Virus record (IMG/VR): IMGVR_UViG_3300009068_003615
Span: 1 to 23,974 of that record
Source: a virus
Reading direction: 5' to 3' (one strand)
Length of the DNA stretch: 23,974 nt
Part shown: positions 2,625 through 21,458 of the stretch, piece after piece
Position numbering within the stretch: position 1 is the first letter of the stretch
Layout: every line of letters begins with the position of its first letter
Made by a program: the position numbers and the translations under genes
The notes under the pieces: model-generated
Told to the model about the DNA's origin: nothing
Database searches by the model: none
The model's input: the letters and a program-made list of their open reading frames with translations, nothing else

Positions 2625-2648
2625 TTTAAGTTATAAAAAATAAAGTAA

Positions 2649-3599: not shown

Positions 3600-3616
3600 T
3601 AAATAGATATAAAATT

Positions 3617-4392: not shown

Positions 4393-4411
4393 AAGTATGT
4401 TTCATTTGGTT

Positions 4412-4425: not shown

Positions 4426-4452
4426 TTAAATAATAAAGGTTAAAATAAGGTT

Positions 4453-5835
4453 ATGACAAAAAAGAAAAAGATACTTCTGTTATCTGACGATCTTCGAATG
4501 CATTCAGGCATTGCGACCGTTTCTCGAGAGATTGTATTAAATACATGTAAAGAATTTGATTGGGTTCAATTAGGAGCCGCAGTAACTCATCCTGATGAAG
4601 GTAAGGTGTTTGATTTGTCTTTGGACACTGCAAAGCAAACTGGTGTTGAAGACGCTAGCGTTAAAATTTATGCTTATTCAGGATATGGCAATCAAGATGT
4701 TCTTCGAGAATTAATTCAAATTGAACGTCCTGACGCTATTTTACATTTTACAGATCCTAGATTTTGGGGCTGGCTTTATGCAATGGAGCATGAATTGAGA
4801 CAAATCATTCCATTAGCATATTACACTATTTGGGACTCAACTCCATATCCTAAATGGAACAAACCATTTTACGAGTCTTGCGACTTACTAATGTGTATTT
4901 CAAAACAAACTCATAATATCGTTAAGCAAGTATTAAAAGATTGTGGATATGCAGATTGGCAAATTACTTACGTTCCTCATGGTATCAATCATGAACAGTT
5001 TTTTCCAATTGATGAAAATCATGCACAATGGTTAGAGTTTCAAAAATTCAAATCAGATTTAATTCCTGCAGGTAAAGAATTTATCATGTTTCACAATGCT
5101 AGAAATATTCGAAGAAAACATACTTCAGATTTAATTTTAGCTTATAAAGAATTCTGTGATCGCATTGGAGCTGAAGAAGCTAAAAAATGTTTATTTTTAC
5201 TTCATACTGATCCAATTGACGATAATGGTACTGATCTACCAGCTGTTATTAAAGAATTGTGTCCTGAGTATGATGTAATGTTTACAAATAATAGACTGTT
5301 AACGACTAAGGAATTGAACTTCTTATATAATTTATCTAACATCACTGCTAATATTGCTTCTAATGAAGGATTTGGTTTAGGTACTGCAGAAGCTGTTATG
5401 GCGGGTACTCCAATTGTAGTTAATGTAACTGGAGGAATGCAAGATCAATGTGGTTTTAAAGATCATGAAGGAAATTATTTAACTGAAAATGATTATTCCG
5501 ATGCATTCCAAACTAACGCAGACAAAATTTATACTTCTCATGGAGAATGGGTTAAACCAGTATTTCCAGCAGTAAGAACTCTTCAAGGATCTCCGTCAAC
5601 TCCTTATATATTTGATGACATTGCAGATTATAAAGAAACAGCAGATGCAATTTGGTATTGGTGGAATAAATCAGAAGCTGAGCAAACAGCAGCAGGTTTA
5701 TTAGGTCGTGAACATTATATGAAACCAGAAGTTGGATTGTCAGCATTTGAAATGGGCAATCGTTTTATTAAAGACATTAATACAATGCTTGAAAAGTGGC
5801 AACCACGTAAAAGAACAGAAATTTTTAAAATATAA
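4453..5835 (+). CDS. Glycosyltransferase, GT-B fold, GT4-like
   Basis: A 460-residue retaining glycosyltransferase of the GT4 type. The N-terminal Rossmann half begins KILLLSDDLRMHSGIATVSRE (residues 6-26; note the G-I-A loop for acceptor binding). The donor half carries NARNIRRKH near 215-223 and the diagnostic E-x7-E motif as EGFGLGTAE (305-313). No membrane segment is visible, so it should act in the cytosol. It is the first gene of the island, just after a candidate promoter element, and is followed by a second GT4-like gene seven bases later. The donor and acceptor cannot be told from the sequence. Confidence 0.88.
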   Translation: MTKKKKILLLSDDLRMHSGIATVSREIVLNTCKEFDWVQLGAAVTHPDEGKVFDLSLDTAKQTGVEDASVKIYAYSGYGNQDVLRELIQIERPDAILHFTDPRFWGWLYAMEHELRQIIPLAYYTIWDSTPYPKWNKPFYESCDLLMCISKQTHNIVKQVLKDCGYADWQITYVPHGINHEQFFPIDENHAQWLEFQKFKSDLIPAGKEFIMFHNARNIRRKHTSDLILAYKEFCDRIGAEEAKKCLFLLHTDPIDDNGTDLPAVIKELCPEYDVMFTNNRLLTTKELNFLYNLSNITANIASNEGFGLGTAEAVMAGTPIVVNVTGGMQDQCGFKDHEGNYLTENDYSDAFQTNADKIYTSHGEWVKPVFPAVRTLQGSPSTPYIFDDIADYKETADAIWYWWNKSEAEQTAAGLLGREHYMKPEVGLSAFEMGNRFIKDINTMLEKWQPRKRTEIFKI

Positions 5836-5842
5836 TTAAGTT

Positions 5843-7141
5843 ATGAATAAACCAGTACTAGTATTTCAAGCTCCAGTAGGTACCCGCTCAGGATATGGAG
5901 AGCGTTCTCGAGATTTAATTCGAGCAATAATTGCTTTAGATAAATATGATATTAAAATTGTGTCGACACGTTGGGGTAGCACTCCGATGAATGCATTGAC
6001 AGAAGAAGATCAAGATATTATTTCTAGAATTTTAACACAACCTTTAGCACAACAACCTGAAATTTATATGCAAGTAACAGTGCCTAATGAATTTCAGCGT
6101 ATAGGTAAATTTAATATTGGCGTTACTGCTGGTATTGAAACTAACTTATGCGATGCTAGTTGGATTGAAGGTTGCAATAGAATGGATTTAATTTTAGCTT
6201 CGTCAGAACATGCTAAATCTGTATTTGAAGCTTCTGCATATCAACAAGTAAATGAACAAAAACAAATTGTCGGTGAGCTTAAATTACAAAAACCTGTAGA
6301 AGTTTTATTTGAAGGAATTCGTTTAGATAAATTTAAAAAATCATATGCAGCTACTCCTGCAGTAGAGTCATTGTTTAAAGAAATAAAAGAAGATTTTGCA
6401 TTTTTATTTGTAGGGCATTGGCTTCCAGGTGCATTTGGAGAAGATAGAAAAAATGTATCTGGATTGATTAAATCTTTTTATGAAGCATTTAAAAATAAAC
6501 AAAACGCTCCGGCATTAATCTTAAAGACTTCCGGAGGTACATTGTCTATAGTTGATAGAGAAGATGTAATTAATAAAATTAATCAAATCAAAAATTCAAT
6601 CGACACTAAAAATCTTCCTAATGTATATTTAGCCTATGGAGATTTTAGTTATGAAGAAATGAATGACTTATATAATCATCCAAAAGTTAAAGCACATATT
6701 TCATTTACCAAAGGAGAAGGGTTTGGTCGACCTTTATTAGAAGCTGCGTTAACATCTAAACCAATAATTACAACCAATTGGTCAGGTCATATTGACTTTT
6801 TAAATGAAGAATCTTCAGTCTTATTAGGAGGCACGCTGACAAATGTACATCCTTCAGCAGCTTGGAAAGGAGTTCTTAATCAAGAGTCTTCTTGGTTTAC
6901 AGTTAACTATGGTCAAGCAATTGCATATATGAAAGATATGTATAAAAACTATAAAACATATACAGAAAAATCTAGAAAGACTTATCATCAAATTAAAACT
7001 AATTTCTCTTTTGATTCTATGAAAGATAAACTAGATAATATATTAACTAATAGAATTCCTGATTTTCCTAAGCAAGTTCAATTAAAATTACCTCAATTAA
7101 AGAAAATTGAATTACCTAAACTTAAAAAAATAGAAAAATAA
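5843..7141 (+). CDS. Glycosyltransferase, GT-B fold, GT4-like, with C-terminal repeat tail
   Basis: A 432-residue enzyme with a Gly-rich N-terminal acceptor loop (PVGTRSGYGERSR, 11-23), a donor-site DRKN at 201-204 and the E-x7-E motif EGFGRPLLE at 292-300. It is distinct in sequence from the preceding GT4 despite the shared fold, so the two probably add different residues. The final 25 or so residues form a lysine-rich repeat: LPQLKKIE followed by LPKLKKIE, encoded by two 24-base units at 7088-7111 and 7112-7135. Such a basic, amphipathic tail may anchor the enzyme to membrane or to a partner; that is inference. Confidence 0.87.
   Translation: MNKPVLVFQAPVGTRSGYGERSRDLIRAIIALDKYDIKIVSTRWGSTPMNALTEEDQDIISRILTQPLAQQPEIYMQVTVPNEFQRIGKFNIGVTAGIETNLCDASWIEGCNRMDLILASSEHAKSVFEASAYQQVNEQKQIVGELKLQKPVEVLFEGIRLDKFKKSYAATPAVESLFKEIKEDFAFLFVGHWLPGAFGEDRKNVSGLIKSFYEAFKNKQNAPALILKTSGGTLSIVDREDVINKINQIKNSIDTKNLPNVYLAYGDFSYEEMNDLYNHPKVKAHISFTKGEGFGRPLLEAALTSKPIITTNWSGHIDFLNEESSVLLGGTLTNVHPSAAWKGVLNQESSWFTVNYGQAIAYMKDMYKNYKTYTEKSRKTYHQIKTNFSFDSMKDKLDNILTNRIPDFPKQVQLKLPQLKKIELPKLKKIEK
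7088..7135 (+). repeat. Two tandem 24-bp units encoding LPxLKKIE
   Basis: Two adjacent 24-base units at the 3' end of the second GT4-like gene encode LPQLKKIE and LPKLKKIE. They differ at a few, mostly third-position, bases, so this is an old duplication rather than a fresh slippage product. A degenerate third copy may precede it (FPKQVQLK). Confidence 0.7.
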
Positions 7142-7144
7142 AAT

Positions 7145-7774
7145 ATGAAAATAAGTTACGGAATAACAGTTAAAGATGAAATAGTAGAAATTCAACATTT
7201 GTTAACTTTTCTTTTAAAGAATAAGAGACTACAAGATGAAATCGTTATATTATTTGATAACATAAATGGTTCTTCATCAGTTGAAGAATATTTACGAGCA
7301 AACTCAATAAATGATGATTGTGGGTTTAAATGGTATCCATATCCATTCAATGGCCATTTCGCTGATTTAAAAAATTATTTAACTAGCTGGTGCTCCGGAG
7401 ACTATATTTTTCAAATTGATGCAGATGAGCTACCGAATGAAACGTTAATTGAAATGTTGCCAGATCTTTTAAGCCGAAATACTAATTGTGAAGTATTTTT
7501 AGTTCCTAGAGTCAATACAGTAGATGGATTAACTCAAGAACATATACAACAATGGGGTTGGTCAGTTAATGAGGCTGGATGGGTAAATTGGCCAGACTAT
7601 CAATGGAGAATTTATAAAAATAGTACAGATATTAAATGGGTAAATAAGGTACATGAAAAATTGCATGGATTTAAAACTTGGAGTCTAATACCTGAAATGG
7701 AAAAATTAGCACTTTATCATCATAAAACTATTAATCGACAAGAAACCCAAAACAACTATTACAATACATTATGA
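7145..7774 (+). CDS. Glycosyltransferase, GT-A fold, GT2-like
   Basis: A 209-residue protein beginning KISYGITVKDE, the usual first strand of GT2-like enzymes that start with a conflict-free variant of the SVIIPTYN motif. The metal-binding DxD equivalent is DADE at residues 92-95 in FQIDADELP. A WRIYKN and VHEKLHG region (about 155-175) resembles the C-terminal part of family-2-like enzymes of the SunS/WaaE type, where a conserved VHE is common. It is short for GT2 but looks complete. Its stop overlaps the next start by four bases (ATGA), so the GDP-mannose-epimerase homologue is translationally coupled to it. Confidence 0.8.
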   Translation: MKISYGITVKDEIVEIQHLLTFLLKNKRLQDEIVILFDNINGSSSVEEYLRANSINDDCGFKWYPYPFNGHFADLKNYLTSWCSGDYIFQIDADELPNETLIEMLPDLLSRNTNCEVFLVPRVNTVDGLTQEHIQQWGWSVNEAGWVNWPDYQWRIYKNSTDIKWVNKVHEKLHGFKTWSLIPEMEKLALYHHKTINRQETQNNYYNTL

Positions 7775-8829
7775 AAACAGCATTAATACTAGGCGGTGGC
7801 GGATTTATAGGAGGACATCTAGGTAAACGATTGAAATCTGAAGGATATTGGGTTAGGATAGTAGATATAAAAAAACATGAACATTTTACGGAAGATGAAA
7901 TTTGTAACGAATTTTTAGTTTATGATTTGTGTGACCCAAAAAATGTAGAAGTTGTATTTAGATTAGAAAGTGTAGATGGAATTTTATTACCAGCTGGGCA
8001 TCATAAACATCTAAATTCAAAAAGTGAATCTTTTGATGAAGTGTATCAATTAGCTGCTGATATGGGCGGCGCTGGATATATTTTTACAGGAGAGAATGAT
8101 GCTAATGTTATGTACAACTCTGCAATAATTAACTTAAATGTCGTAAAGGAAGCTGTAAAAACTAAAGTTAAAAAAGTATTTTATTCTTCTTCAGCTTGTA
8201 TGTATCCGGAACATAATCAATTAGATCCTGAAAATCCTAATTGTGAAGAGTCTTCAGCTTACCCAGCTAATCCCGATTCAGAATATGGATGGGAAAAGTT
8301 ATTCAGTGAAAGATTATTTTTAGCATTTAACAGAAACTATGGATTAGATATTAGAATTGCACGATTCCATAATATATTCGGGCCTTTTGGAACTTATAAA
8401 GGAGGTAAAGAAAAAGCTCCTGCAGCTATGTGTAGAAAAGTAGCTGAGACTTTAGAAGGTGGCGAGATTGAAGTTTGGGGTGATGGGTTGCAAACTAGAT
8501 CATTCTTATATATTGATGAATGTTTAGATGCTATGTTAGCATTAATGAAATCCGACTTTCAAGGACCAGTTAATATAGGTTCAGAAGAAATGATTACTAT
8601 CAACGAATTAGCTCAAATGGCTATTGACATTTCAGGTAAACAAGTCACAATTAAAAATATTGACGGAGATGAGTTTATTGAAAAATATGGATTCAAATGT
8701 CCTACCGGAGTTCGAGGAAGAAACTCAGACAATACATTATTTTTAGAAAAATTAGGTTGGAAAGTTAATCAGCCATTATATACAGGAATTGAATTAACTT
8801 ATAAATGGATTAATACTCAGGTAATATGA
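7771..8829 (+). CDS. GDP-mannose 3,5-epimerase-like extended SDR
   Basis: A 352-residue NAD-dependent epimerase very like plant GDP-mannose 3,5-epimerase (GME), which converts GDP-mannose to GDP-L-galactose (and GDP-L-gulose). Seen: Rossmann GGGGFIGG (8-15), AADMGGAGYI (95-104), SSACMYPE (140-147, with the catalytic-type C143), YGWEK (172-176, YxxxK), RFHNIFGPFGTYKGG (198-212), EKAPAAMCRK (214-223, with K215 as the second catalytic base), WGDGLQTRSF (236-245) and GVRGRNSDN (313-321). These are the GME hallmarks, including the Cys/Lys pair that does the double epimerisation. A 15-20-residue insertion with GHHKH (76-80) precedes the AADMGG motif. The coupled downstream gene is a GT11 enzyme. 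Confidence 0.9.
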   Translation: MKTALILGGGGFIGGHLGKRLKSEGYWVRIVDIKKHEHFTEDEICNEFLVYDLCDPKNVEVVFRLESVDGILLPAGHHKHLNSKSESFDEVYQLAADMGGAGYIFTGENDANVMYNSAIINLNVVKEAVKTKVKKVFYSSSACMYPEHNQLDPENPNCEESSAYPANPDSEYGWEKLFSERLFLAFNRNYGLDIRIARFHNIFGPFGTYKGGKEKAPAAMCRKVAETLEGGEIEVWGDGLQTRSFLYIDECLDAMLALMKSDFQGPVNIGSEEMITINELAQMAIDISGKQVTIKNIDGDEFIEKYGFKCPTGVRGRNSDNTLFLEKLGWKVNQPLYTGIELTYKWINTQVI

Positions 8830-9623
8830 TTACACATAAAAGTATAGGTTATAGTGGAAGATTAGGTAATCAAATGTTTCAATATGCAGCTTTAAAAGCT
8901 CAAGCCTTAAAATTAAATGTAGATTGCTATTTGCCTAATCATACTGCTATTAAACAAGATGGCTGTTTTGATTATACAAATAATAAATGGATTCAATATA
9001 AATTAGATTTGTATGACTGTTTTAATATTACAGCGCCTTTATTAAATCAAACTGAAACAAATATATACATAGAATTGGATTTTTCATATGAAAGTCTTAT
9101 ATTAGATGTATTAGATAATATGGCTATTGAAGGATATTTTCAATCTTATAAATACTTTGAAAATTATAAAGATGAGATTTTAAAAGAGATTACATTTAAA
9201 GATGAAATATTAAATAAATGTAAATTGAAAATATCTAAATATACAAACCCAGTAGCAATTCATATACGAAGAGGCGATCAAGTAGCCCATCCCGGTATGT
9301 GGAATGTGACTTTGGAATATATTCAAGCAGCGCTAGAACAATTTTCAGATGAAGAATATACGTTTTTAATATTCTCTGATGATATGGAATGGTGTAAACA
9401 AGTATTTCCTGAAGGGGTTGTATTTATGGAAGGTAATAACCAATATGAAGATTTATGTTTAATGTCATTATGTAATCATAATGTAATTTCAAATTCATCT
9501 TACTCTTGGTGGGCGGCATATTTAAACAATAATAAAAATAAAAAAGTAGTAGTGCCAAGCAATTGGTTTATTCCTGCAAAACCATTAACAGATTTATATT
9601 TACCTGAATGGATTTGTCTATAA
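8826..9623 (+). CDS. GT11 family glycosyltransferase (alpha-1,2-fucosyltransferase-like)
   Basis: A 265-residue GT11 enzyme. Hallmarks are GRLGNQMFQYAA (11-22), HIRRGD (146-151, the GDP-L-fucose binding motif), FSDDMEWC (183-190) and SNSSYSWWAA (222-231) near the C-terminus. Known members transfer L-fucose from GDP-L-fucose. No GDP-fucose pathway genes (gmd, fcl) appear in the window, but the gene overlaps by four bases the GME homologue that should make GDP-L-galactose, the 6-hydroxy analogue of GDP-L-fucose. I infer that L-galactose may be the natural donor sugar; host-made GDP-fucose is the simpler alternative. Confidence 0.9.
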   Translation: MITHKSIGYSGRLGNQMFQYAALKAQALKLNVDCYLPNHTAIKQDGCFDYTNNKWIQYKLDLYDCFNITAPLLNQTETNIYIELDFSYESLILDVLDNMAIEGYFQSYKYFENYKDEILKEITFKDEILNKCKLKISKYTNPVAIHIRRGDQVAHPGMWNVTLEYIQAALEQFSDEEYTFLIFSDDMEWCKQVFPEGVVFMEGNNQYEDLCLMSLCNHNVISNSSYSWWAAYLNNNKNKKVVVPSNWFIPAKPLTDLYLPEWICL

Positions 9624-9638
9624 CATAAAAATTAAAAT

Positions 9639-10274
9639 ATGAAACCTAAAGCATTTCTAGTAATATCTAGATACAATGAAAATGTAGACTGGGTTAATGA
9701 ATTAACTGACAATTATATAATTTATAATAAAGGAAATAAATTACCAGATCATTATAATGAAATTCTTGCTCCAAATTTCGGAGCGAATCAATATGATATG
9801 TTTCGATTCATACACGATAATTATGAAAATCTGCCTGATTTAATTGCTTTTATGCAAGGAGATCCATACGATCATTGTTTACCAGAAAGATTTAATAATC
9901 TTATTCATAATGAGTTGTTTACAATGTTATTTGGCGACAGAAATTATCCAGATGGAAATTATTATGAAGCTAATAATAGTTGGTATATTGATGCAGCATT
10001 TAATAGTCATAAACCAAAATGTAAATTTTCAAATTTCGACGAATATGCACATACTATATTTGAAAATTATTCGCATCAAGGAATTTTAATTTTCCCTCCT
10101 GGGTCTCAATTAATTGTAGAGAAAGAAAGATGTTTATACTATTCTAAAAACTTTTGGAAAAAACTAATGAATATTATATGTGATCAAGAAGGAATGAATG
10201 GGGGGCGTGAAGCGCATATTGTAGAAAGATCAATCCAACTTATTTTTGAAAATAAATTTAAAGAAAAATTATGA
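9639..10274 (+). CDS. DUF3431-like protein, possible glycosyltransferase
   Basis: A 211-residue protein. Its start VISRYNENVDWV (8-19), then IIYNKG (27-32), PNFGANQYDMFRFI (45-58) and NLPDLIAFMQGDPYDH (64-79) follow the layout of DUF3431-type proteins: an Arg-Tyr-Asn-Glu start, a YNKG turn, an N-x-G-x-E/N stretch and an LPD...FxQG...H block. That family is suspected to be glycosyltransferase-related because of its genomic company and GT-A-like start, but activity is unproven. The gene sits between GT11 and radical SAM genes with a four-base overlap into the latter. An overlapping frame at 9844-10089 is a shadow. Confidence 0.65.
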   Translation: MKPKAFLVISRYNENVDWVNELTDNYIIYNKGNKLPDHYNEILAPNFGANQYDMFRFIHDNYENLPDLIAFMQGDPYDHCLPERFNNLIHNELFTMLFGDRNYPDGNYYEANNSWYIDAAFNSHKPKCKFSNFDEYAHTIFENYSHQGILIFPPGSQLIVEKERCLYYSKNFWKKLMNIICDQEGMNGGREAHIVERSIQLIFENKFKEKL

Positions 10275-11359
10275 TAGAACAAGACCAATTAGAACCTGTA
10301 CAAGGCAGAACATTTACCAGTAATACTAGTAAGCTATTAAAACACTTAGATAAGATTAAGCTTTTACAAGATGGTAAAAGACCATCTCCTGTAATGTTTC
10401 ATCTTTCCATAGCAAACCCGTGCAATTTAACATGTAGTTTTTGTTGCTTTGCTAACAGAACATTAAAAGAAATGTTAACTTTCGAGCAAATAAAAAAGGC
10501 TATCGATTCATTTGTTGAACTTGGAGCGACTGGAGTAGAAATTACTGGAGGTGGAGAGCCTACACTGCATCCTGATTTTGGTAAAGTAGTAAATTATGCT
10601 TATGAAAAAGGTTTAAAAATTGGAGTAGTGACTAACGGAACTACAATAACTAAGTGGCATAAAGTTGGAGGAGTTTGGGATAAACTTGAATGGATTAGAT
10701 TAGGGATGTATGGGTTTTATGAAGGTTATGAATATGACATAGAATCTTTAAGAACTTACCCTAATCTTACTATAGGAGCGGCTTATATATGGGATGAAAA
10801 TTTTGCTACGTCGACTAACCCCAACATAATAGGAAGTTGGGGAGAGACAGAAGGAGTAGATACTAAAGGAAAACGATTATCTAAACACAGACAAACTCCA
10901 GAACATTTTGAAAGAATGTTAGAATGGGTAGAGAAAGAAAAAGTCCCTACTCGAATAGCATTTAATTCAATTAAATCTGCAGATTTAATCGCTGAAGATA
11001 TTGAGATGATTAGAGAAAGAATAAAGGATAAAAACTTAAAATACGCATTTTTATCTGATTTTAATTATAAAGGAACAAGAAAGAATAGTAATTGTTATAT
11101 GCATAACTTTAAACCATTTGTTTTTACTGATGGAAATGTTTATGTATGCCCGTGTGCTGAAATGGCAGTAGAAAATTCTTGGAAAGTTAATCCTGAATTT
11201 AAAATTTGTGATATCGACGGCATTATGGATTTTTATAATAATGTTCAAGAAGATAATGGAATTAAAAGAATCCATGCATGCACATATTGTAAATATGCAG
11301 CTCAAAACGAATTGATTGACGACGCTTTAACTGAAACAGAGCATAATGATTTTGCTTAA
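10271..11359 (+). CDS. Radical SAM enzyme with SPASM-like C-terminal cysteines
   Basis: A 362-residue radical SAM protein. The 4Fe-4S site is CNLTCSFC (C51, C55, C58, with an extra C59), and the SAM-binding GGGEPTLHP is at 93-101. After the barrel, cysteines C275, C293, C295, C313, C337 and C340 form a SPASM- or twitch-like auxiliary cluster domain. Such enzymes modify peptides, sugars or small molecules. Surrounded by glycosyl- and methyltransferases, it may carry out a radical step on a sugar (deoxygenation, epimerisation or C-methylation) or on an amino acid of the glycosylated protein. No specific substrate can be read from the sequence. Confidence 0.85.
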   Translation: MIEQDQLEPVQGRTFTSNTSKLLKHLDKIKLLQDGKRPSPVMFHLSIANPCNLTCSFCCFANRTLKEMLTFEQIKKAIDSFVELGATGVEITGGGEPTLHPDFGKVVNYAYEKGLKIGVVTNGTTITKWHKVGGVWDKLEWIRLGMYGFYEGYEYDIESLRTYPNLTIGAAYIWDENFATSTNPNIIGSWGETEGVDTKGKRLSKHRQTPEHFERMLEWVEKEKVPTRIAFNSIKSADLIAEDIEMIRERIKDKNLKYAFLSDFNYKGTRKNSNCYMHNFKPFVFTDGNVYVCPCAEMAVENSWKVNPEFKICDIDGIMDFYNNVQEDNGIKRIHACTYCKYAAQNELIDDALTETEHNDFA

Positions 11360-11374
11360 CTAATATATAAAATT

Positions 11375-12046
11375 ATGAAAATTAAAAACACAAAAGAAAA
11401 CGAACACAAAGACACGCCGTTTGAAGGATCATTTTATGATGCTGAATATTTTGAAAATGGTCAAGGATCAGGAAAAGGATGGCTACAGAATTATCGATGG
11501 ATGCCTAGACGAACTTTTAAAGAAGCATTGGCTATAGCTGACTATTTAGAGTTAGACGACACAAGTCATGTTTTAGATGTAGGATGTGCTAAAGGCTTTA
11601 TTGTTAAAGCATTACGTGCTTTAGAAATTAAAGCAGATGGATGTGATATAAGCGAATATGCATTATCATTTTGTCCTGAAGGATGTTGGAACTGCACGGA
11701 TTGGTCTTACGGCTACGACACTGGATATACTCATATTGTTATAAAAGATATGCTTGAGCATTTAACTTTACCACAATTAGATGAATTATTGCAAACATTA
11801 AAAAATGTAGCTAATACTATATTATGCGTTATTCCTATGGGTGATAATGGTATATATAGAATTCCAGAATACCATATGGAAATATCTCATTTAATTGCTG
11901 AAGATGAGCAGTGGTGGATAGATACATTTGAAAAAAATGGATGGCATGTAGCGAAGCGTGATTCTATTGTTCCTGGATTAAAAGATAATTGGTCTAATCA
12001 TGCTAATGGATTAGGAAATCATACATTTGTAATTAAAACTAAATAA
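11375..12046 (+). CDS. SAM-dependent methyltransferase, class I
   Basis: A 223-residue protein with motif I VLDVGCAKG at 66-74, an acidic strand-2 end (DGCDIS, 88-93) and a motif-IV-like KDMLEHL near 125-131, typical of Methyltransf_11/23-type enzymes. The start SFYDAEYFENGQGSGKGW (19-36) resembles the N-terminal region of methyltransferases in polysaccharide clusters. The lead ATATAAAATTATG defines the start. It is 15 bases after the radical SAM gene. Most likely an O- or C-methylation of a sugar; the target is not identifiable. Confidence 0.8.
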   Translation: MKIKNTKENEHKDTPFEGSFYDAEYFENGQGSGKGWLQNYRWMPRRTFKEALAIADYLELDDTSHVLDVGCAKGFIVKALRALEIKADGCDISEYALSFCPEGCWNCTDWSYGYDTGYTHIVIKDMLEHLTLPQLDELLQTLKNVANTILCVIPMGDNGIYRIPEYHMEISHLIAEDEQWWIDTFEKNGWHVAKRDSIVPGLKDNWSNHANGLGNHTFVIKTK

Positions 12047-12076
12047 GTATATTATACTCTTTATAATAAAAATAAT

Positions 12077-12772: not shown

Positions 12773-12775
12773 AAA

Positions 12776-13546: not shown

Positions 13547-14445
13547 AAATATACGATGGATTTTTATTTTTTAATGAATTAGATTTATTAGAAATTAGAT
13601 TAAATACATTATCAGAAGTAGTCGATTATTTTATATTAGTCGAATCTTCAGTAACTCATGCGGGAGAGCCAAAACCTTTTATTTTTGAAGAAAATAAAAA
13701 TCGATTTGCTCCATTTTTAAATAAAATAATACATATTAAAGTTACTGACACACCAAATGACTTCAGAGTATCTCCTAAAGAATTTCCAGATACTTTTGAC
13801 GGAAATTTTTTAAAATCAGTATGGAGTTATATTGATACTACTCAAACATTTAATAGGGTTAACCAACAAAATTTTGGTAGAGATTTTTATCAAAAAGAAT
13901 GTATTAAGCGTGGAATGGAGCATGCAAATGATAATGATATTTTAATAGCATCAGATTTGGATGAAATTCCTAACCCAGAGATCATTTCCAGATTAAATGA
14001 GTTTTTTGAAGAAGATGCATTTTATACATTTAATCAAACAATGTATTGTTATTATTTTAATTTACTTCGAAGTTCACATATTAATAATGCTAAGTTTAAT
14101 CATGAAATTACGCATATATGGAAAGGTTCTAGAATGGGTACTTGGGGTATGATTAAAGATTATTCATTAAATGAATTAAGAGCTCAAGATAATAATGATA
14201 TAATGGATGGAGGCTGGCATTTTAGTTATATGGGTGGCCTAGATAGAGTTAAACAAAAAATTCAAGCTTCAAGTGCTCAAGAGTGGAATACAGATGCTGT
14301 TATTAATAATTTAGAAAAAAACCTAATTGAGGAAAGAGATGCTATTTCTAGAGGTGACTATCTTATTAAAGTAGAAATAGACGACACATATCCTCAATAT
14401 TTTTTAGATAATTTAGAAACTTTTAAATACTTGGTTAAAGAATGA
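13543..14445 (+). CDS. GT17 family glycosyltransferase (MGAT3-like fold)
   Basis: A 300-residue member of the GT17 family, whose eukaryotic founder adds a bisecting beta-1,4-GlcNAc to N-glycans. Seen are IYDGFLFFNELDLLEIRL (3-20), FILVESSVTHAGEPKP (30-45), the metal-binding SDLDEIP (137-143), TWGMI (200-204) and GGWHFSYMGG (223-232), all family signatures. Bacterial and viral members lack the animal signal anchor, as here. The donor may not be UDP-GlcNAc in phages. It is coupled by four-base overlaps on both sides (from the O-methyltransferase and into the GT11-like gene). Confidence 0.88.
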   Translation: MKIYDGFLFFNELDLLEIRLNTLSEVVDYFILVESSVTHAGEPKPFIFEENKNRFAPFLNKIIHIKVTDTPNDFRVSPKEFPDTFDGNFLKSVWSYIDTTQTFNRVNQQNFGRDFYQKECIKRGMEHANDNDILIASDLDEIPNPEIISRLNEFFEEDAFYTFNQTMYCYYFNLLRSSHINNAKFNHEITHIWKGSRMGTWGMIKDYSLNELRAQDNNDIMDGGWHFSYMGGLDRVKQKIQASSAQEWNTDAVINNLEKNLIEERDAISRGDYLIKVEIDDTYPQYFLDNLETFKYLVKE

Positions 14446-15398
14446 TATCAACAGAAATATTATATGGGCAAGGATTAGGAAATCAATTAGCATGCTACGT
14501 TACTACTAGAGCTATAGCTGCAGATAAAGGTGTTGATTTTGGTATTCACGACCCTCATGGATGTTTAGGAGATAAAAGATACAATGATAAAGGATTGTAT
14601 TTTTTAGATTTAGATATGGGCAAACCTGTTAATGTAGACAATATTGAATTGTTTTACAATGAAAAGGAATATAGATATTTTACTAATTTATGTCATCATG
14701 ATTCAGTACATGGATGCTGGGTCAATAAAACAGACGAGACTTTAAAAAATATTCCTGACAATTCACATATTTTAGGTATTATGCAAGGTCCAGATTATTT
14801 CTATCATAGAATAGAAGAAGTTAAAGAATGGCTTAAAGTAAAACCTAAATACGATAACTACGATTTTAGTTCAGATGATATTTGCGTTTTAAATGTAAGA
14901 GCTAACATGGACCCTGAAATTTATTTGCCTAGGCCATATTGGATAAATGCAATTAACCATATGTTAGATATCAATACTAATATGACATTTTTAGTAATTA
15001 CAGAAGATGTAGAATCTACTAAAAGACTATTACCTGAATTAGCAGATAATATTTTTGATTTCGGGATTGGAGAAGATTATGCAATAATTAAAAATGCTAA
15101 ATACTTAATAGCATCTAATTCTAGCTTTTCAATATTTCCTTCTTTAACTAGCAATACATTAAAGAAAATTATTGCTCCTAAATATATGCTTCGGCATAAC
15201 ATAAGTGATGGATATTGGTGTCAAGGGTATAATATTTATCCTACTTACACTTACATGGATAGGGAAGGAAAATTATTTAGTGCTGAAGAATGTTTAAAAG
15301 AATTTGAAGACTATTGTGTTAAAACAGATTTTTACAATTCTAAAACAATTCAAAAATATTCTCCATTTCCAGACGTAGCAACTATACAACCTAAATAA
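14442..15398 (+). CDS. Divergent GT11/fucosyltransferase-like protein
   Basis: A 318-residue protein with the opening GQGLGNQLACYVTTRA (9-24) and the closing SNSSFSIFPSL (225-235) of the GT11 fold. The donor motif that reads HIRRGD in the other GT11 of this window is LNVRANMD at 150-157, keeping one arginine but losing His, the second Arg and Gly-Asp order. It therefore probably binds a different nucleotide sugar or is greatly diverged. The C-terminal 70 residues (from about 250) are an extension not needed by the family. It is cysteine-rich for a glycosyltransferase. Confidence 0.7.
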   Translation: MISTEILYGQGLGNQLACYVTTRAIAADKGVDFGIHDPHGCLGDKRYNDKGLYFLDLDMGKPVNVDNIELFYNEKEYRYFTNLCHHDSVHGCWVNKTDETLKNIPDNSHILGIMQGPDYFYHRIEEVKEWLKVKPKYDNYDFSSDDICVLNVRANMDPEIYLPRPYWINAINHMLDINTNMTFLVITEDVESTKRLLPELADNIFDFGIGEDYAIIKNAKYLIASNSSFSIFPSLTSNTLKKIIAPKYMLRHNISDGYWCQGYNIYPTYTYMDREGKLFSAEECLKEFEDYCVKTDFYNSKTIQKYSPFPDVATIQPK

Positions 15399-15400
15399 CA

Positions 15401-16270
15401 ATGACAACACAACTAGTAGTACATTTACTTCCACATGAAATTGATTGGTTCGAGTGGCAATCAAAACAATTTAAAATAGGAAGTTATCATGTAGATAGTA
15501 GCATTATAATTGACGTTACACTTAATCTTAATTTAGTAGATTGGGATAAGTCACAAATGCCTAAACAATTTTACATAGACAAATTCAATTACATTGAAAC
15601 TCTTTGGGATTGGGCAGAAACTAAATTTGATATAAATGAAAATGGAACATGTTTAGGATGCGATGATAAAAGAAGAAACTCGATTAGAACTACCGAAGCC
15701 GATAACATTTTATATCTAGATAGCGACTTAATTTTCAGGCCGGAGACACTGTCGTACATGGTGTCTGCTGCGTCGATCGTAGACAACGAGTATTATATAA
15801 TATCTCCTCAAACTGTGAGAATGTGGGATTCAAGTTGGGATGTAATTACTAATAAAGATTATTTAAACGTGCCAGCAAATATGGAAACATATTATGCAAA
15901 TGATCCTTTTGAAATAATTGCAAAAGATATAACAGATATTGAATTAAAGAAAATTGATGAGTTTAAGTTTGGCGGTGGCTGGTTCAATTTACTATCAACT
16001 AAATTACTTAAATTAACTGACATACCAGACTCCTTTGGCCCTTATGGAATAGATGATTTATATGTTATGATTTGTTGTAATATAATGAAACAAAAAGGAA
16101 TAGAAGTAAATCAATATATAGTAGATGGTTTAGTAGTAATAGAAAATTTTAAATATCGTGAAAACTATCATAAGAATTACTTATATTTAATAGATAATCA
16201 GAACGAGTATAGAGCTCGAGCTGAATCAAATTTAAACATAGAATTAAACAATTTCAATAAATTACTATAA
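15401..16270 (+). CDS. GT-A glycosyltransferase-like protein
   Basis: A 289-residue protein with a GT-A pattern: LVVHLLPHEIDWFEWQ (5-20) as first strand, ILYLDSDLIFRPE (103-115) with DSD at 107-109 as metal site, a FGGGWFNLLS stretch near 190, and GPYGIDDLYVM near 215-225, the DD of which could supply the catalytic base. It fits a broad GT2-like group seen in phages and giant viruses. Codons for residues 111-130 (bases 15731-15790) are strikingly GC-richer than their surroundings. It shares its last base with the start of the FkbM methyltransferase gene. Confidence 0.72.
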   Translation: MTTQLVVHLLPHEIDWFEWQSKQFKIGSYHVDSSIIIDVTLNLNLVDWDKSQMPKQFYIDKFNYIETLWDWAETKFDINENGTCLGCDDKRRNSIRTTEADNILYLDSDLIFRPETLSYMVSAASIVDNEYYIISPQTVRMWDSSWDVITNKDYLNVPANMETYYANDPFEIIAKDITDIELKKIDEFKFGGGWFNLLSTKLLKLTDIPDSFGPYGIDDLYVMICCNIMKQKGIEVNQYIVDGLVVIENFKYRENYHKNYLYLIDNQNEYRARAESNLNIELNNFNKLL

Positions 16271-17031
16271 TGAATATATATTTTAAAGAATCTAATTTTG
16301 GAAATTTTTGTCTATTAGAAGACGATTTAATTAGTAACTGTATTAATGAAAGAGGTTATTGGGAAAATCATTTATTTTACTTTTATAGGCAGTTTATAAA
16401 ATCTGACTATGTGATTATTGACGGAGGGGCTAATTTAGGATTCCATAGTATTCAATTTGCAAAGTTAGCATCTCAAGGAGCTGTATATTGTTTTGAACCT
16501 CAGCCATTAATTTTTAATATACTTTCAACAAATGTATTGATTAATGGATGCTCTGATGTAATTAAACAATATAGATTAGGACTAGGAGATTCAATTGGGC
16601 AGGAATTAAAAATGACTCCGCTTAAAGAACAAATCTTTTCAGAGCATTGTGTTAATTATGGAGGTCGTGGCTTGACTGAAAGTGAGGAAGGTGAAGAAGC
16701 TGTTCAATTAACTACTATAGATAGTTTAGGTTTAGCTAAATTAGATTTCATGAAGTTAGATGTTCAAGGATTTGAATTACATACATTGCTAGGAGGGGAA
16801 GCTACTATTAAAGCAAATTGGCCTTTGATGTTTATAGAAAATTATCCAGACTCAGAACAGGATCAAAAAGTAATTGATTTAATTAAAGAATGGGGTTATG
16901 AAGTTTATAGATTAGAAGCGAGTCATAATGAAGATTGCATTGCCGTTTATCCTAATAAGCATTTAGAAGAAATTAAATTTATAGAAAGTCAACAAGATAT
17001 TAAATGGAAAAAACAAAATTTTAAAAAATAA
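16270..17031 (+). CDS. FkbM-family methyltransferase
   Basis: A 253-residue FkbM-type SAM methyltransferase. Motif I is IDGGANLGFHS at 50-60, strand 2 ends in CFEPQP (74-79), and FMKLDVQGFELHTLLGG (about 155-171) is the family's motif IV/V with the characteristic K-x-D-x-x-G-x-E. LMFIENYP follows. Members methylate hydroxyls on polyketides and on sugars in polysaccharide clusters. The first 40 residues (EDDLISNCINERGYWEN) are also typical of the group. The gene begins on the last base of the preceding stop. Confidence 0.87.
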   Translation: MNIYFKESNFGNFCLLEDDLISNCINERGYWENHLFYFYRQFIKSDYVIIDGGANLGFHSIQFAKLASQGAVYCFEPQPLIFNILSTNVLINGCSDVIKQYRLGLGDSIGQELKMTPLKEQIFSEHCVNYGGRGLTESEEGEEAVQLTTIDSLGLAKLDFMKLDVQGFELHTLLGGEATIKANWPLMFIENYPDSEQDQKVIDLIKEWGYEVYRLEASHNEDCIAVYPNKHLEEIKFIESQQDIKWKKQNFKK

Positions 17032-17035
17032 AAAT

Positions 17036-18796
17036 ATGAGTTTATTAACAAACGATCAGATAAGTAACAGAGGATTTTGGCTTACTGAAGATTCTAGAAA
17101 TCACTGCTTCGATAATAAATTAGCAGATAAACTAAAAGAAGTTTTCACATCATATAGTGTTTTGGATTTGGGTTGTGGCCCTGGGCATTATACTAAATTT
17201 TTTCTAGATAATAATATAGAAAGTGAAGGTTTTGACGGAAATCCTAATACATATACTATATCTGAAGGATTATGTAATGTGGCTGATTTAACTCAAATAC
17301 ATGATTTTAATCAAAAAGATTGGGTATTAAGTTTAGAAGCAGGAGAACATATTCCTAAAGAATATGAACATATATTTATTCAAAATTTAATTAAGCACGC
17401 TAAACAAGGGATAATATTAAGTTGGGCAGTACCTGGACAGCCCGGTGACGGTCATGTAAATTGTCAGTCCAATGAATATGTTATTTCTTTAATGAAAGAA
17501 AATGGGTTTTCATTAGACACTAAAACATCTATAGATCTTAGAGAAGTAGCTGAGTTATGGTGGTTTAAAAATACAGTAATGGTTTTTAGAAAAGATGAAT
17601 TACCTAAAATAACATTTTGCATACCAAGCAAATCAAATTTGCGATATTTAAAAACATGCATACCTTCAATCAGAGAAAATGCATTTAGATCTGATCATGA
17701 TATTATCGTCTTTGTCGACTCAGATGAGGATGGAACTGTAGAATGGTTAGAGCAAGTTAAAGATGAATACAATGTCAAGTATTTTATCAATCCTGATTTA
17801 GGAACGAAATTATTTGGTATTGGAAAGGCATATGATTATTGTATTGAGTCGGCAACGACTGATATTGTAATGATATTTCACGCTGATATGATGTTAGGTA
17901 AACGTGCTGATTTAAATGCATATAAACATCTTAAAAAAGGATCTGTAGTATGTGCTACGAGAATTGAACCTCCTTTACACCCAAATGCTGGAGAAAAAAT
18001 ATTAATGGATTTTGGTATTTGGCCAGAAGAATTTAAAAAGAGTGAATTTAATAATTTTGTAGATAAGTTATTAGTTGATTATAATTATAAGACAACTGAA
18101 GGTATTTTTGCTCCATGGATGATTTATAAATCAGATATATTATCTATTGGAGGGCATGATCCTATTTTAAAGTCGGCTCGTGAAGATTCTGATTTATTTA
18201 ATCGTTTTGTATTAAATGGATATTCAATTATTCAGTCATGGGATTCGTTGGTGTATCATTTAACAGGCAGAGGTGGTCAATTTCAGCATGGTAAAGTAAC
18301 TCAAGACGAAACCGCTAAAAGTGCAGAATGGCAAAAATTAATGATGGACTCGACAAAAGAGTTTATTAGAAAATGGGGAAGTCCAGTAAATCATACTCCC
18401 ATGATGATGCCAATTATTACTCCAAAATATGATATTGCATTTAAAGTTGTTAATTGTTCATATCAAATATTAGAATTGCTTGAGCCGTTTTGTAATAGAA
18501 TATTTGTTGAAAATCAAGATAACCTTATCGAACATTATATCGTTGCTGAACAGCCTAACACTTCATATGATTTAAGTAAGCGAGTACATTCATGGGAATA
18601 TTCTGAACCTCATGATTATCATGATATTATAGTTGATATTAACGGAGCTACATTAACTCAAGAAGATTTTAGCGTAATTCAACAATTGCCTTTGATTATT
18701 CAAGATACAAATGAAACTGGAATATTTGAATTAGGCAATCTTAAAATTAAAATTATTTCCATAACAGAAACACAAAACAATTTAATTAAATTATGA
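17036..18796 (+). CDS. Fused methyltransferase-glycosyltransferase
   Basis: A 586-residue two- or three-domain protein. Residues 1-185 are a class I methyltransferase: VLDLGCGPG at 42-50, EGFDGNP (64-70) and WVLSLEAGEHIP (96-107, motif IV). Residues 191 to about 440 are a GT2-like glycosyltransferase: ITFCIPSKSNLRYLKTC (192-208), VFVDSDEDGT (225-234) and a metal site in FHADMM (281-286), followed by a long acceptor half. The last 130 residues are a third segment without recognised motifs, rich in beta-type sequence. The fusion implies that methylation and sugar transfer act on the same chain end, in the manner of chain-capping enzymes. It overlaps the SDR gene by four bases. Confidence 0.85.
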   Translation: MSLLTNDQISNRGFWLTEDSRNHCFDNKLADKLKEVFTSYSVLDLGCGPGHYTKFFLDNNIESEGFDGNPNTYTISEGLCNVADLTQIHDFNQKDWVLSLEAGEHIPKEYEHIFIQNLIKHAKQGIILSWAVPGQPGDGHVNCQSNEYVISLMKENGFSLDTKTSIDLREVAELWWFKNTVMVFRKDELPKITFCIPSKSNLRYLKTCIPSIRENAFRSDHDIIVFVDSDEDGTVEWLEQVKDEYNVKYFINPDLGTKLFGIGKAYDYCIESATTDIVMIFHADMMLGKRADLNAYKHLKKGSVVCATRIEPPLHPNAGEKILMDFGIWPEEFKKSEFNNFVDKLLVDYNYKTTEGIFAPWMIYKSDILSIGGHDPILKSAREDSDLFNRFVLNGYSIIQSWDSLVYHLTGRGGQFQHGKVTQDETAKSAEWQKLMMDSTKEFIRKWGSPVNHTPMMMPIITPKYDIAFKVVNCSYQILELLEPFCNRIFVENQDNLIEHYIVAEQPNTSYDLSKRVHSWEYSEPHDYHDIIVDINGATLTQEDFSVIQQLPLIIQDTNETGIFELGNLKIKIISITETQNNLIKL

Positions 18797-19641
18797 AAAT
18801 ACTAGTAACAGGAGGATTAGGATTTGTAGGGTCCAATCTAATTAAACGACTAATTAACGAAGGACATGATGTTTCATGTATAGATAACTTATCTACCGGG
18901 TTAGTTGAAAATAGAGTGTCAGGTTGTACATATCATTATTATGATTGCAATGACATCAATAAAAAATTAACAGATAATTATGAAGTGATCTTTCATTTAG
19001 CTGCATTGGCTCGAATTCAAGCTTCATTTATGTATCCAACCAATACGTTTATATCCAATACATCAGGGACTCAAGAAGTTTTAGAATATGCTCGATTACA
19101 CAATTCTAAAGTTATATATGCAGGATCTTCATCAAAGTGGCATGATCCTAAAATATCTCCATACGCAATGAGCAAATATTTAGGAGAAGAGCTTTGTAAG
19201 ATGTATCGTCAATGCTTTGATTTAAAAGTACAACTTACAAGATTTTATAATGTATATGGACCGGGAGAAATTGTTGATGGCGACTATGCAGCTGTAATTG
19301 GAATTTGGAGAAGGCAATGCCGAGATAACCAACCTATTACGGTTGTAGGCGACGGCTTGCAAAGAAGAGATTTTACATATATTAATGATATTGTTGATGG
19401 ATTAATTAAAGTAATGAGCACTGACATTTATCATGAAGATGCTTGGGAATTAGGAACAGGCACCAATCATTCTATATTAGATATTGCTAAAGTCTTTGCA
19501 GAAAAATTTCATAATGAAATTGTACATCTACCCGACCAGCATGGTAATTATCGTGAGACTTTGCGTGAGCATAGCGATGCCTTAACATTATTAAATTGGA
19601 ATCCAAAAGATCAATTAAAAGAATATATTAATAGTTTATAA
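18793..19641 (+). CDS. NAD-dependent epimerase/dehydratase, extended SDR
   Basis: A 282-residue extended SDR acting on a nucleotide sugar. It shows GGLGFVG (7-13), the acidic end of strand 2 in CIDNLSTG (29-36), HLAALA (68-73), the catalytic serine in GSSSK (111-115), YAMSK (124-128, YxxxK), RFYNVYGPGE and GDGLQRRDFTYIND, the family's substrate-binding blocks. It resembles GalE-like UDP-glucose/UDP-glucuronate 4-epimerases and decarboxylases; the exact reaction cannot be settled. It is shorter than most GalE (about 330). The next gene, two bases on, is a UDP-sugar dehydrogenase, so a UDP-uronate substrate is likely. Confidence 0.85.
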   Translation: MKILVTGGLGFVGSNLIKRLINEGHDVSCIDNLSTGLVENRVSGCTYHYYDCNDINKKLTDNYEVIFHLAALARIQASFMYPTNTFISNTSGTQEVLEYARLHNSKVIYAGSSSKWHDPKISPYAMSKYLGEELCKMYRQCFDLKVQLTRFYNVYGPGEIVDGDYAAVIGIWRRQCRDNQPITVVGDGLQRRDFTYINDIVDGLIKVMSTDIYHEDAWELGTGTNHSILDIAKVFAEKFHNEIVHLPDQHGNYRETLREHSDALTLLNWNPKDQLKEYINSL

Positions 19642-19642
19642 T

Positions 19643-20500
19643 ATGAAACAACAAATAGGAATTATTGGACAAGGCTTTGTAGGATCGGCAGTCCGAGAAG
19701 GAATGAAAAATCATTTTGACATTTTGGCATTCGATAAAGATCCTAATAAGTATAGCAACGTTGAATCGATATTTCATGTAGTTGAAAGTACAGATTTGAC
19801 TTTTTTATGTGTACCAACGCCAATGCGTAAAAATGGTTCATGTGACTTGTCAATTGTAAGAAATGCTTTAAATGAAATCAATGACGTTGCCAAAGCACTT
19901 TTTGCGGAAGATTATATCGTAGTAATCAAATCGACTATTCCTCCAGGAACGACAGAGCAATTAAATCGAGAATATCCTAATTTAGATATTGTATTTAATC
20001 CAGAGTTTTTAACTGAAGCAAATGCAGTTGATGATTATAAAAATCAAAATAGAATTATTGTAGGAGGCGAAAGACCAGGCTCGACAAAAGTTAAAGCTGT
20101 ATTTGCAAAAGCATTTCCTAAAGTGCCAATCATCAAAACATCTTCATCAATTGCTGAAATGATTAAGTATGTAACTAATACATTTTTAGCAACTAAAGTT
20201 TCATTTGCAAATGAAATGTATCAAATTTGTCAAGCACTGAATATTGACTATGATAAAGTGATTGAATATGCACGTTATGATGATCGATTAGGAAATTCAC
20301 ATTGGAGTGTTCCTGGTCCAGATGGCGACTTTGGTTTTTCAGGAAGTTGTTTCCCAAAGGACATCCAATCATTAATACATCAAGCTAAGTTATTAGGACT
20401 TGACCCTTCTGTATTAGAAGCTGCTTGGAATAAAAATCTTAAAGTAAGGCCAGGCAAGGATTGGGAGACTCTTAAAGGACGCGCGGTAAGTGCAGAATAA
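19643..20500 (+). CDS. UDP-glucose/GDP-mannose dehydrogenase, short form
   Basis: NAD-dependent four-electron oxidation of a nucleotide sugar to its uronate. The N-terminal Rossmann domain has GQGFVGSA (9-16), FLCVPTP (54-60), KSTIPPGTT (96-104) and FNPEFL (118-123). The central dimerisation helix has EMIKYVTNTFLATK (172-185, with active-site K175). The catalytic cysteine is C236 in GFSGSCFPKD. All catalytic residues are therefore present. At 285 residues it lacks most of the C-terminal UDP-binding domain found in the usual 390-450-residue enzymes, and no continuing frame follows in the 24-base gap. The short form may be complete, or may use a partner for the missing domain. Confidence 0.87.
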   Translation: MKQQIGIIGQGFVGSAVREGMKNHFDILAFDKDPNKYSNVESIFHVVESTDLTFLCVPTPMRKNGSCDLSIVRNALNEINDVAKALFAEDYIVVIKSTIPPGTTEQLNREYPNLDIVFNPEFLTEANAVDDYKNQNRIIVGGERPGSTKVKAVFAKAFPKVPIIKTSSSIAEMIKYVTNTFLATKVSFANEMYQICQALNIDYDKVIEYARYDDRLGNSHWSVPGPDGDFGFSGSCFPKDIQSLIHQAKLLGLDPSVLEAAWNKNLKVRPGKDWETLKGRAVSAE

Positions 20501-20524
20501 ATTATTAATTTTAAATTTTAAATT

Positions 20525-20854
20525 ATGAAAGTCAATAACGAAAAAATAAACGGTACAATCATCAGAGATACTGATGTATATATAGTTGAAGACAATACTT
20601 TTTTAAATAACTTAGTTTTATCAAAAACCACTTTACATCGTAATCAATGTACATCAGGCCATTCTCATGCTGGGCTTGAAGAAGTGTATTTCTTTCAAAG
20701 AGGTAACGGTACAATGCAACTTGATGAAGAAACTTTTGATGTCGCTGCAGGTGATATAGTTCTTATACCCGACGGTGCATTTCATAAAGTCTTTAACAAA
20801 AATGGAAAGCAAGATTTAGTATTTGTTTGTGTGTTTCAAAAATACGAACGATAA
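20525..20854 (+). CDS. Cupin-domain protein
   Basis: A 109-residue single cupin barrel. Motif 1 is TSGHSHAGLEEVYFFQRGNG (43-62) with H46, H48 and E52 as metal ligands. Motif 2 is GDIVLIPDGAFHKVFN (76-91) with H87 as the fourth ligand. The set is complete, so it is likely a functional metal-binding cupin. Next to sugar-nucleotide genes it could be a sugar isomerase or epimerase, but single cupins have many roles. The start follows an A/T lead (TTTTAAATTATG). It appears to end the island: a 52-base gap with a candidate promoter follows. Confidence 0.85.
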   Translation: MKVNNEKINGTIIRDTDVYIVEDNTFLNNLVLSKTTLHRNQCTSGHSHAGLEEVYFFQRGNGTMQLDEETFDVAAGDIVLIPDGAFHKVFNKNGKQDLVFVCVFQKYER

Positions 20855-21436: not shown

Positions 21437-21458
21437 ACCAACATTAAAAAGTAATTAT

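Follow-up and report, generated by a model that had tools for sequence, protein, structure and literature searches.

Results

A virus record of 23,974 bp (IMG/VR record IMGVR_UViG_3300009068_003615), which was analysed over its entire length and is called the window here, carries an island of 18 genes (positions 4453-20854, all on the plus strand) with nine recognisable glycosyltransferases (GTs). Its first two genes, GT4a and GT4b, are inherited with the phage backbone, and the genes that follow form a cassette whose sharing among phages runs against their relatedness. We give about an even chance to the reading that the island is a cytosolic, serotype-like glycan system of T4-like aquatic phages, with a phage-borne acceptor that is most likely a virion protein. 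An earlier note on this DNA, made from the sequence alone, had proposed comparing synteny in related phages; that comparison brought out the constant GT4 pair and the exchangeable cassette, the main feature that the note had missed.

A constant GT4 pair

The island follows a PD-(D/E)XK exonuclease gene, and this arrangement recurs. The exonuclease has 197 relatives on viral contigs by protein. In the loci around the best 80 of them, which were not dereplicated, GT4a lies downstream of the exonuclease in 55/55 loci with at least 2 kb of sequence there (no upper distance was set), GT4a and GT4b in 34/34 loci with 4.5 kb, and GT4a, GT4b and the next gene, GT2a, in 26/26 loci with 7 kb. GT4a itself has relatives in at least 597 viral-contig stretches, as against nine records among 50,697 phage records. 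Among the best 80 of these stretches, two of which were already in the first set, the 78 new loci had GT4b within 1.5 kb downstream in all 61 that were testable; in 69 of 71 the exonuclease lay upstream, no more than 3.5 kb away, and in the other two a partial match to it sits close to the edge of the locus. The two sets of loci share contigs, for example L066/L215 and L058/L205. GT4a is also present in 16 of the 18 island-related records that were searched whole; it is missing from G039, a fragment of 82 kb, and from G046, a contig of 108 kb found via the cassette.

Pairwise distances in the GT4 pair follow those of the exonuclease (Mantel r 0.94, n = 62, for GT4a; 0.90, n = 51, for GT4b), as do those of the backbone genes gp44 (0.93, n = 56) and gp62 (0.94, n = 71). 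The exchanged genes gave 0.69 (GT2a, n = 40) and 0.53 (the epimerase/decarboxylase SDR2, n = 13), values that paralogues among the best matches may have lowered. In the 12 dereplicated loci common to all, r was 0.96 for GT4a, 0.90 for GT4b and 0.53 for GT2a. Matches spanning less than 75% of the query were dropped from these comparisons, and their p-values are uncorrected for shared ancestry.

The close GT4a matches among the nine phage records are four deposits of Flavobacterium phage immuto, together with Microcystis phage Mel-JY01. Immuto (160 kb) has the same island ends, in the order exonuclease, GT4a, GT4b, GT2a, variable genes, epimerase and GT2, and Mel-JY01 carries gp44, gp62, the exonuclease, IMP dehydrogenase, a split GT4a, GT4b and GT2a, with a GT2 of weak similarity further on. 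Since a Flavobacterium and a Microcystis phage both have the starter pair, it is not specific to a single host envelope. A scan of 84,980 prokaryote species for close relatives of GT4a returned one weak match, at 36% over 57 residues.

An exchangeable cassette

The closest relative found, G006, has a DNA identity to the window of 91.6% over positions 1-2040 and 81% over 2041-7675; after 7675 there is no match until 17830 (64%) and 19638 (89%). Constant flanks thus enclose a variable middle of sugar genes, with the left break between GT4b (87% amino-acid identity) and GT2a (56%), and the right break between SDR2 (43%) and the nucleotide-sugar dehydrogenase NDPDH (91% over the 140 residues aligned).

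We compared 12 cassette genes or domains at 50% amino-acid identity or more; GT2a is at one end of this stretch and the GT2 part of MTGT2, a fusion protein, at the other. None of the 12 is shared with G006, G003, G007 or G001, and four are shared with G004, at 88-90%. By contrast, the distant G022 has nine in common (radical SAM enzyme 95%, methyltransferase MT1 89%) at core identities of 47% for gp44, 45% for GT4a and 55% for GT4b. Cassette sharing, at none of 12 in the closest relative and nine of 12 in a distant one, therefore runs against relatedness. The third codon positions of G022 give raw identities, with a random expectation of 34%, of 37-42% in gp44, gp62, the exonuclease and GT4a and 52% in GT4b, and of 53-74% in the nine shared cassette genes.

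A close-relative scan with the radical SAM enzyme returned three viral contigs, G022 among them. All three match the epimerase, GT11a, the DUF3431 protein, MT1, GT2b, GT17 and GT11b (33-89%), with a different order in L284, which suggests that the glycan recipe travels as a unit. L284, a contig of 108,457 bp (G046), has this recipe in its other order and no GT4a in the record; it may be a different phage type with a similar glycan, or a fragment.

Other relatives fill the same place with other enzymes. In a Pfam check of ten of 101 mapped open reading frames (ORFs), these were GT2 transferases, methyltransferases (two of them C-methyltransferases), aminotransferases, a phytanoyl-CoA-type dioxygenase and RmlD, and one protein was without a match. 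Near the right end of the mapped islands stands the GT2 part of MTGT2 (residues 189-586, named GTcap), found at 45-61% in all six of them (G001, G003, G004, G006, G007 and immuto) and at 25% in Mel-JY01; the order of epimerase and GT2 at this end differs in G001 and immuto. The MTGT2 fusion has relatives in 59 viral loci.

Composition of the island

The genes of the island and its flanks are as follows.

99-1028, plus strand: gp44-like clamp loader, left backbone flank (phrog_168, 8e-86)
1255-1722, plus strand: gp62-like clamp loader subunit, backbone (phrog_225, 9e-19)
2649-3599, plus strand: PD-(D/E)XK exonuclease, upstream of GT4a as the left neighbour of the island in relatives (phrog_69, phrog_1218)
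4453-5835, plus strand: GT4a, lineage-constant GT-B (GT4) transferase with EX7E (PF00534, phrog_2170)
5843-7141, plus strand: GT4b, lineage-constant GT4 transferase with EX7E (PF00534 over cut-off, phrog_2170)
7145-7774, plus strand: GT2a, exchanged with the cassette yet present in relatives, left break point against the closest relative (PF00535)
7771-8829, plus strand: SDR1, GDP-mannose 3,5-epimerase (GME)-like (PDB 2c59, E 2.4e-94; best non-GME match 3e-22)
8826-9623, plus strand: GT11a, GT11 transferase with HIRRGD, overlapping SDR1 by 4 bp (PF01531 3e-34, phrog_2644)
9639-10274, plus strand: DUF3431 protein, possible tenth transferase (PF11913 1.4e-8)
10271-11359, plus strand: radical SAM enzyme with CX3CX2C (PF04055)
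11375-12046, plus strand: MT1, SAM methyltransferase (phrog_27380 1.4e-30; Pfam methyltransferase models under cut-off)
12077-12772, plus strand: GT2b, GT2 transferase (PF00535 4e-15)
12776-13546, plus strand: NanM-type sugar O-methyltransferase (TIGR04371 61 bits, cut-off 44)
13543-14445, plus strand: GT17 transferase (PF04724 1.3e-21)
14442-15398, plus strand: GT11b, GT11-like, without HxRRGD (phrog_2644 1e-10; no Pfam match)
15401-16270, plus strand: u15401, protein of predicted GT-A fold (model and Foldseek)
16270-17031, plus strand: FkbM-family methyltransferase (PF05050 7e-18, TIGR01444)
17036-18796, plus strand: MTGT2, methyltransferase-like domain fused to GT2 (PF00535 over cut-off, PF13489 under cut-off)
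18793-19641, plus strand: SDR2, nucleotide-sugar epimerase/decarboxylase (PF01370; PDB matches divided between GalE and UDP-glucuronate decarboxylase)
19643-20500, plus strand: NDPDH, short (285 amino acids) nucleotide-sugar dehydrogenase, right break point (TIGR03026 over cut-off)
20525-20854, plus strand: cupin (PF07883)
20907-21146, plus strand: g20907, small right-flank gene (68-71% in G001, G003, G004 and G007)

The earlier note had counted 16 genes where the ORFs give 18, and was right that they form a nearly gapless run on one strand: 16,298 of 16,402 bases are coding, intergenic gaps range from -4 to +30 bp, and genes overlap by 4 bp at six of the 17 junctions. The T4-like replication neighbourhood that it described is borne out by matches to gp44, gp62, a dNMP kinase and the exonuclease in the left flank. 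Its count of nine transferases also stands, by family or fold, as two GT4, two GT2, one GT11, one GT11-like, one GT17, the methyltransferase-fused GT2 and u15401, and the DUF3431 protein is possibly a tenth. Family matches likewise confirm the radical SAM enzyme, the three nucleotide-sugar enzymes and the cupin. As for the four methyltransferase domains it had listed, the NanM-type and FkbM proteins lie over curated cut-offs and MT1 is matched by phrog_27380, whereas the fused domain reaches only sub-cut-off Pfam scores. This gene content supports the complex, methylated sugar chemistry that had been proposed.

Motifs were found intact, namely EX7E in both GT4 proteins, HxRRGD in GT11a, CX3CX2C in the radical SAM enzyme, CFPKD in NDPDH and YxxxK in SDR1 and SDR2; HxRRGD was also looked for in GT11b and is absent. 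GT4a scores 26.3 bits with PF00534, 0.1 bit below the Pfam cut-off of 26.4, and its structure is predicted with a predicted local distance difference test (pLDDT) score of 91. Its best PDB match by profile is 3oy2, chlorovirus NY-2A B736L (1.3e-14; next 5.6e-7). In the same database GT4b has a single weak match, GTcap weak GT2 matches only, and the radical SAM core domain 8wm2 as its best match, followed by cytosylglucuronate decarboxylase. The protein u15401 has no Pfam, PHROG or NCBIfam match and its profile found nothing in the PDB, so its fold was predicted (pLDDT 94); Foldseek placed this model with COLGALT1, mannosylglycerate synthase and other GT-A enzymes (probability 1.0, E from 6e-7), at a TM-score of only about 0.4-0.5. 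NDPDH has no C-terminal domain match in Pfam, and its short form is conserved, since it is matched over an equal length in G001, G003, G004 and G007. In the right flank, the gene at 22345-23016 found no match as a scan query, and an ORF at 21408-21896, with a TTG start and overlapping its neighbour, shows in translation an HExxH motif (HEIAH) as in metallopeptidases.

Phage group and host

The window has no near DNA match among the 50,697 phage records. Four of its larger relatives (G001, G018, G032 and G038, 168-182 kb) have the major capsid protein (54-60%), portal, terminase, tail tube and helicase in common with immuto, and we therefore regard these four and immuto as one phage group. A Shine-Dalgarno-like motif precedes none of 30 window genes (of 32; 21143 and 21408 were left out), against 10.8% at random positions, which is only a mild depletion with a chance of about 3%; counted by ORFs the figure is 0/24. 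The motif is not enriched in immuto (6/90, random 18.5%) or G001 (8/121, random 10.8%), and is enriched in Mel-JY01 (10/31, random 4.8%), G038 (33/117, 8.4%) and the Escherichia coli rfb locus (5/11, 9.9%). Together with the host of immuto, its absence suggests a Bacteroidota host for the window phage, and because G038 has the motif, the phage group may span host phyla.

The split of GT4a near residue 167-171 is seen in Mel-JY01 and also in two similar records, in which a 0.8-kb gap lies at the split (G034, G035; L147:13442-14933); it is possibly an intron or an insertion at a conserved place. In G044 (13458-14837), one internal TGA lies within the GT4a frame.

Export machinery and the host surface

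The island could instead remodel the host surface. Its product would then be an O-antigen or capsule unit, built on the host undecaprenyl carrier and exported by the host flippase, polymerase and ligase, for example to block superinfection. We consider this unlikely, although it deserves serious weight. Bacterial O-antigen and capsule loci typically keep their ends constant and exchange the GT, methyltransferase and nucleotide-sugar genes that lie between, as the island does. They differ from it in that the island's relatives lack the Wzx, Wzy and initiating transferase families in the records searched. The initiating transferase family PF02397 was found in 0/43 of the relatives' records (control 9/14 genomes), PF00953 in 0/25, immuto and Mel-JY01 included (control 12/14), the polymerase family PF04932 in 0/25, again with both isolates (control 9/14), and the flippase family PF01943, the only flippase family searched, in 0/24 (control 13/14). 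None of the window's own island genes matches an initiating phosphoglycosyltransferase in Pfam.

A Kyte-Doolittle hydropathy scan agrees with these searches. Among ORFs of at least 100 amino acids in G001, G018, G032, G038 and the complete isolate immuto, whose pieces were scanned separately so that ORFs cut at piece ends were missed, all but two proteins have at most four hydrophobic segments. The two are the annotated tape measure of immuto (nine) and an unassigned 715-amino-acid ORF of G038 (seven), located some 2 kb past the gene for the tail tube, where a tape measure would lie; neither is exporter-like. In the window, none of 28 such ORFs has three or more segments, and so none fits the membrane proteins GtrA, GtrB and Gtr of phage seroconversion (gtrABC), for which no family models were searched; the island genes have no segments at all, as the earlier note had said of the transferases. 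In the control, one E. coli rfb locus, Wzx scored nine segments and Wzy six, and four soluble proteins, two of them transferases, scored zero. Because soluble proteins of a lipid-linked pathway also score zero, the idea that a lack of membrane segments proves a non-lipid product was dropped, and soluble transferases are thus found in O-antigen loci too.

The earlier note had taken the absence of export machinery as favouring a cytosolic product. A 23,974-bp record cannot decide this by itself; the relatives, as far as they can stand in for it, gave no flippase, polymerase or initiating transferase of the families searched, which the note had named as refuting its view. Soluble enzymes and the missing Wzx and Wzy are consistent with a cytosolic product but are by themselves no argument against a host polysaccharide, since a phage could still rely on the exporters of its host. 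What argues further against host-surface remodelling is that the starter enzymes follow the phage backbone in their descent and are common to Flavobacterium and Microcystis phages, that the species scan found no close GT4a relative in host genomes, and that the remodelling would need to act inside one lytic cycle. On the other side, two papers on marine T4-like phages read such genes as host-surface genes: GT-rich regions of pelagimyophages as modifying the O-chain against coinfection (PMC7029224), and lipopolysaccharide and other sugar genes of cyanophages as modifying the host surface or as cell-wall genes (PMC9602691).

DNA and other acceptors

DNA hypermodification, in which the transferases would put an oligosaccharide on hydroxymethyl-pyrimidines of the phage DNA, seems improbable to us. 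The earlier note had named DNA as a possible acceptor, and the comparison weakens this. In the LGLPFN motif, the thymidylate synthases of G001 and immuto have Asn at the specificity position, where dCMP hydroxymethylase has Asp. On the other hand, G032, which also carries the island, encodes at 57720-58226 (L169) a shorter ThyA-family homologue with Asp, which in the PDB matches T4 dCMP hydroxymethylase best (4e-17), and G030 (71876-72394), likewise island-bearing, has a dCMP-hydroxymethylase-like gene by a weak PF00303 match only. PF00303 matches occur in 6/24 records, among them strong ones in G010, G015 and G016. The other 18/24 have none, including G017, G018 and G038 (156-170 kb; G018 170 kb, G038 168 kb), which carry GT4a all the same. 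With this mixed pattern of thymidylate synthase and hydroxymethylase, seen in relatives of a window that is itself a genome fragment, the island does not generally go together with hydroxymethyl-pyrimidine. Since a dUMP hydroxymethylase might look like a thymidylate synthase, the route to DNA is weakened and not closed.

Searches for modifying enzymes add little weight, since their controls were silent: Tet_JBP was found in 0/25 records and T4 alpha-glucosyltransferase AGT (PF11440) in 0/26, where beta-glucosyltransferase was not searched. The T4-like context and the dNMP kinase near the island would suit a DNA acceptor, as would the two annotated DNA alpha-glucosyltransferases among the viral fold neighbours of GT4a, at ranks 30 and 36, and phage GTs that hypermodify DNA with glycans have been described (Pyle 2024, as cited in PMC12619734). 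As a separate observation, immuto (L143:18607-36093) has annotated QueC, QueD, QueE, FolE and DpdA genes, for 7-deazaguanine in DNA, besides the glycan island; matches to its QueC and DpdA are found in G018, and none in G001, G032 or G038 at E 1e-6.

There is a slim chance that the acceptor is some other cytosolic molecule. Candidates are a tRNA base, a free oligosaccharide, the head group of a lipid or host proteins modified during takeover. Enzymes of the GT4 and GT-A folds act on a wide range of acceptors and the sequence fixes none, but exchange of the outer genes would point to a structure seen from outside and not to an internal regulatory mark.

Discussion

We return to the reading of the island as a glycan system with a phage-borne acceptor. 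The soluble island enzymes would act in the cytosol of the infected cell, where GT4a and GT4b would most likely put the first sugar or sugars on the acceptor, which is probably a virion protein. Extension and methylation of the chain, perhaps to 8-10 residues in this phage, would then fall to the exchangeable genes that run from GT2a up to the GT2 domain of MTGT2; this conserved domain, close to the right end, may add a cap or a branch. Members of the GT11 family use GDP-L-fucose. Since SDR1 is GME-like and overlaps GT11a by 4 bp, GDP-L-galactose is the obvious donor for GT11a; SDR1 would epimerise GDP-mannose to GDP-L-galactose (or L-gulose), and the adjoining GT11 enzyme would use the product. 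Recombination that swaps the middle would leave close phages with different surface glycans, and could change how lectins, receptors or predators recognise them. Acceptor, sugar order, donor identities and purpose are what we infer here. The stronger claim, of a true serotype system with a fixed two-enzyme starter on the virion and a site of whole-cassette exchange at which even distant phages trade complete recipes, we hold tentatively, at somewhat below even.

Several points weigh against our reading, beside the possible effect of paralogues on the correlations of GT2a and SDR2. The virion-protein acceptor is predicted from the genes, and the island lies in the replication region, away from the structural genes. 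Und-PP-sugar is a near-universal acceptor, so that conservation of the pair across hosts need not imply a phage-borne acceptor. By fold, B736L (4.5e-14) is only narrowly ahead of MshA (1.4e-13) among the matches of GT4a; with MshA so close behind and the DNA alpha-glucosyltransferases lower in the viral fold search, themselves a point against us, the fold does not fix the acceptor. No gp44 or gp62 matches were found in immuto and G032, and the GT4 pair is therefore not tied to T4 replication genes throughout the group, though its retention in both also means that it is kept where the replication genes differ. Finally, the relatives deposited as complete genomes are only immuto and Mel-JY01.

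Among known systems, virion glycosylation shares with the island virus-encoded soluble transferases and a conserved core with variable outer enzymes, and capsid glycosylation of the chloroviruses PBCV-1 and NY-2A is its closest analogue. Chloroviruses have virus-encoded cytoplasmic transferases that make a conserved four-sugar core with a variable further region and a dimethylated capping sugar (PMC7019647), and one of their GT proteins carries a methyltransferase domain (PMC4691112); NY-2A B736L is also the best PDB match of GT4a. Membership of GT4a in the chlorovirus family was considered on this ground and dropped, given its narrow lead over MshA by fold. Chloroviruses are eukaryotic large DNA viruses with an unrelated virion, their glycan and capsid acceptor are proven where those of the island are predicted, and the available parts of the chlorovirus papers do not mention cassette exchange between constant ends. 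Another comparison is with the mycobacteriophages Che8 and Rita, tailed phages with their own putative GTs, whose glycans are reported on major capsid proteins (PMC11256854); mycobacteriophage glycans are reported on the tail tube as well (PMC12619734). The transferases described there are few (two are named for Maravista), in contrast to nine or ten in the island.

Pelagimyophages and cyanomyophages are, like the window phage, T4-like aquatic phages with many sugar genes (PMC7029224, PMC9602691), and cyanophage S-SCSM1 has a GDP-mannose 3,5-epimerase and fucosyltransferases (PMC9602691). The GT region of pelagimyophages occupies the stretch from VrlC to gp14, together with tail-fibre genes (PMC7029224), whereas the island follows clamp-loader and exonuclease genes and has the constant GT4 pair. 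We found no description of a constant pair with a swapped cassette in the open literature searched, as far as its available text goes.

Where such genes have been read as host-surface genes, a constant, phage-specific starter pair with an exchangeable cassette offers a concrete alternative, namely a virion glycan that varies like a serotype. With at least 597 viral stretches bearing GT4a against nine of 50,697 phage records, this would concern a large and mostly uncultured group of phages. Because the isolated Flavobacterium phage immuto has the same layout, the system is testable in culture. If the claim of a true serotype system holds, virions would change their coat as bacteria change their capsule type.

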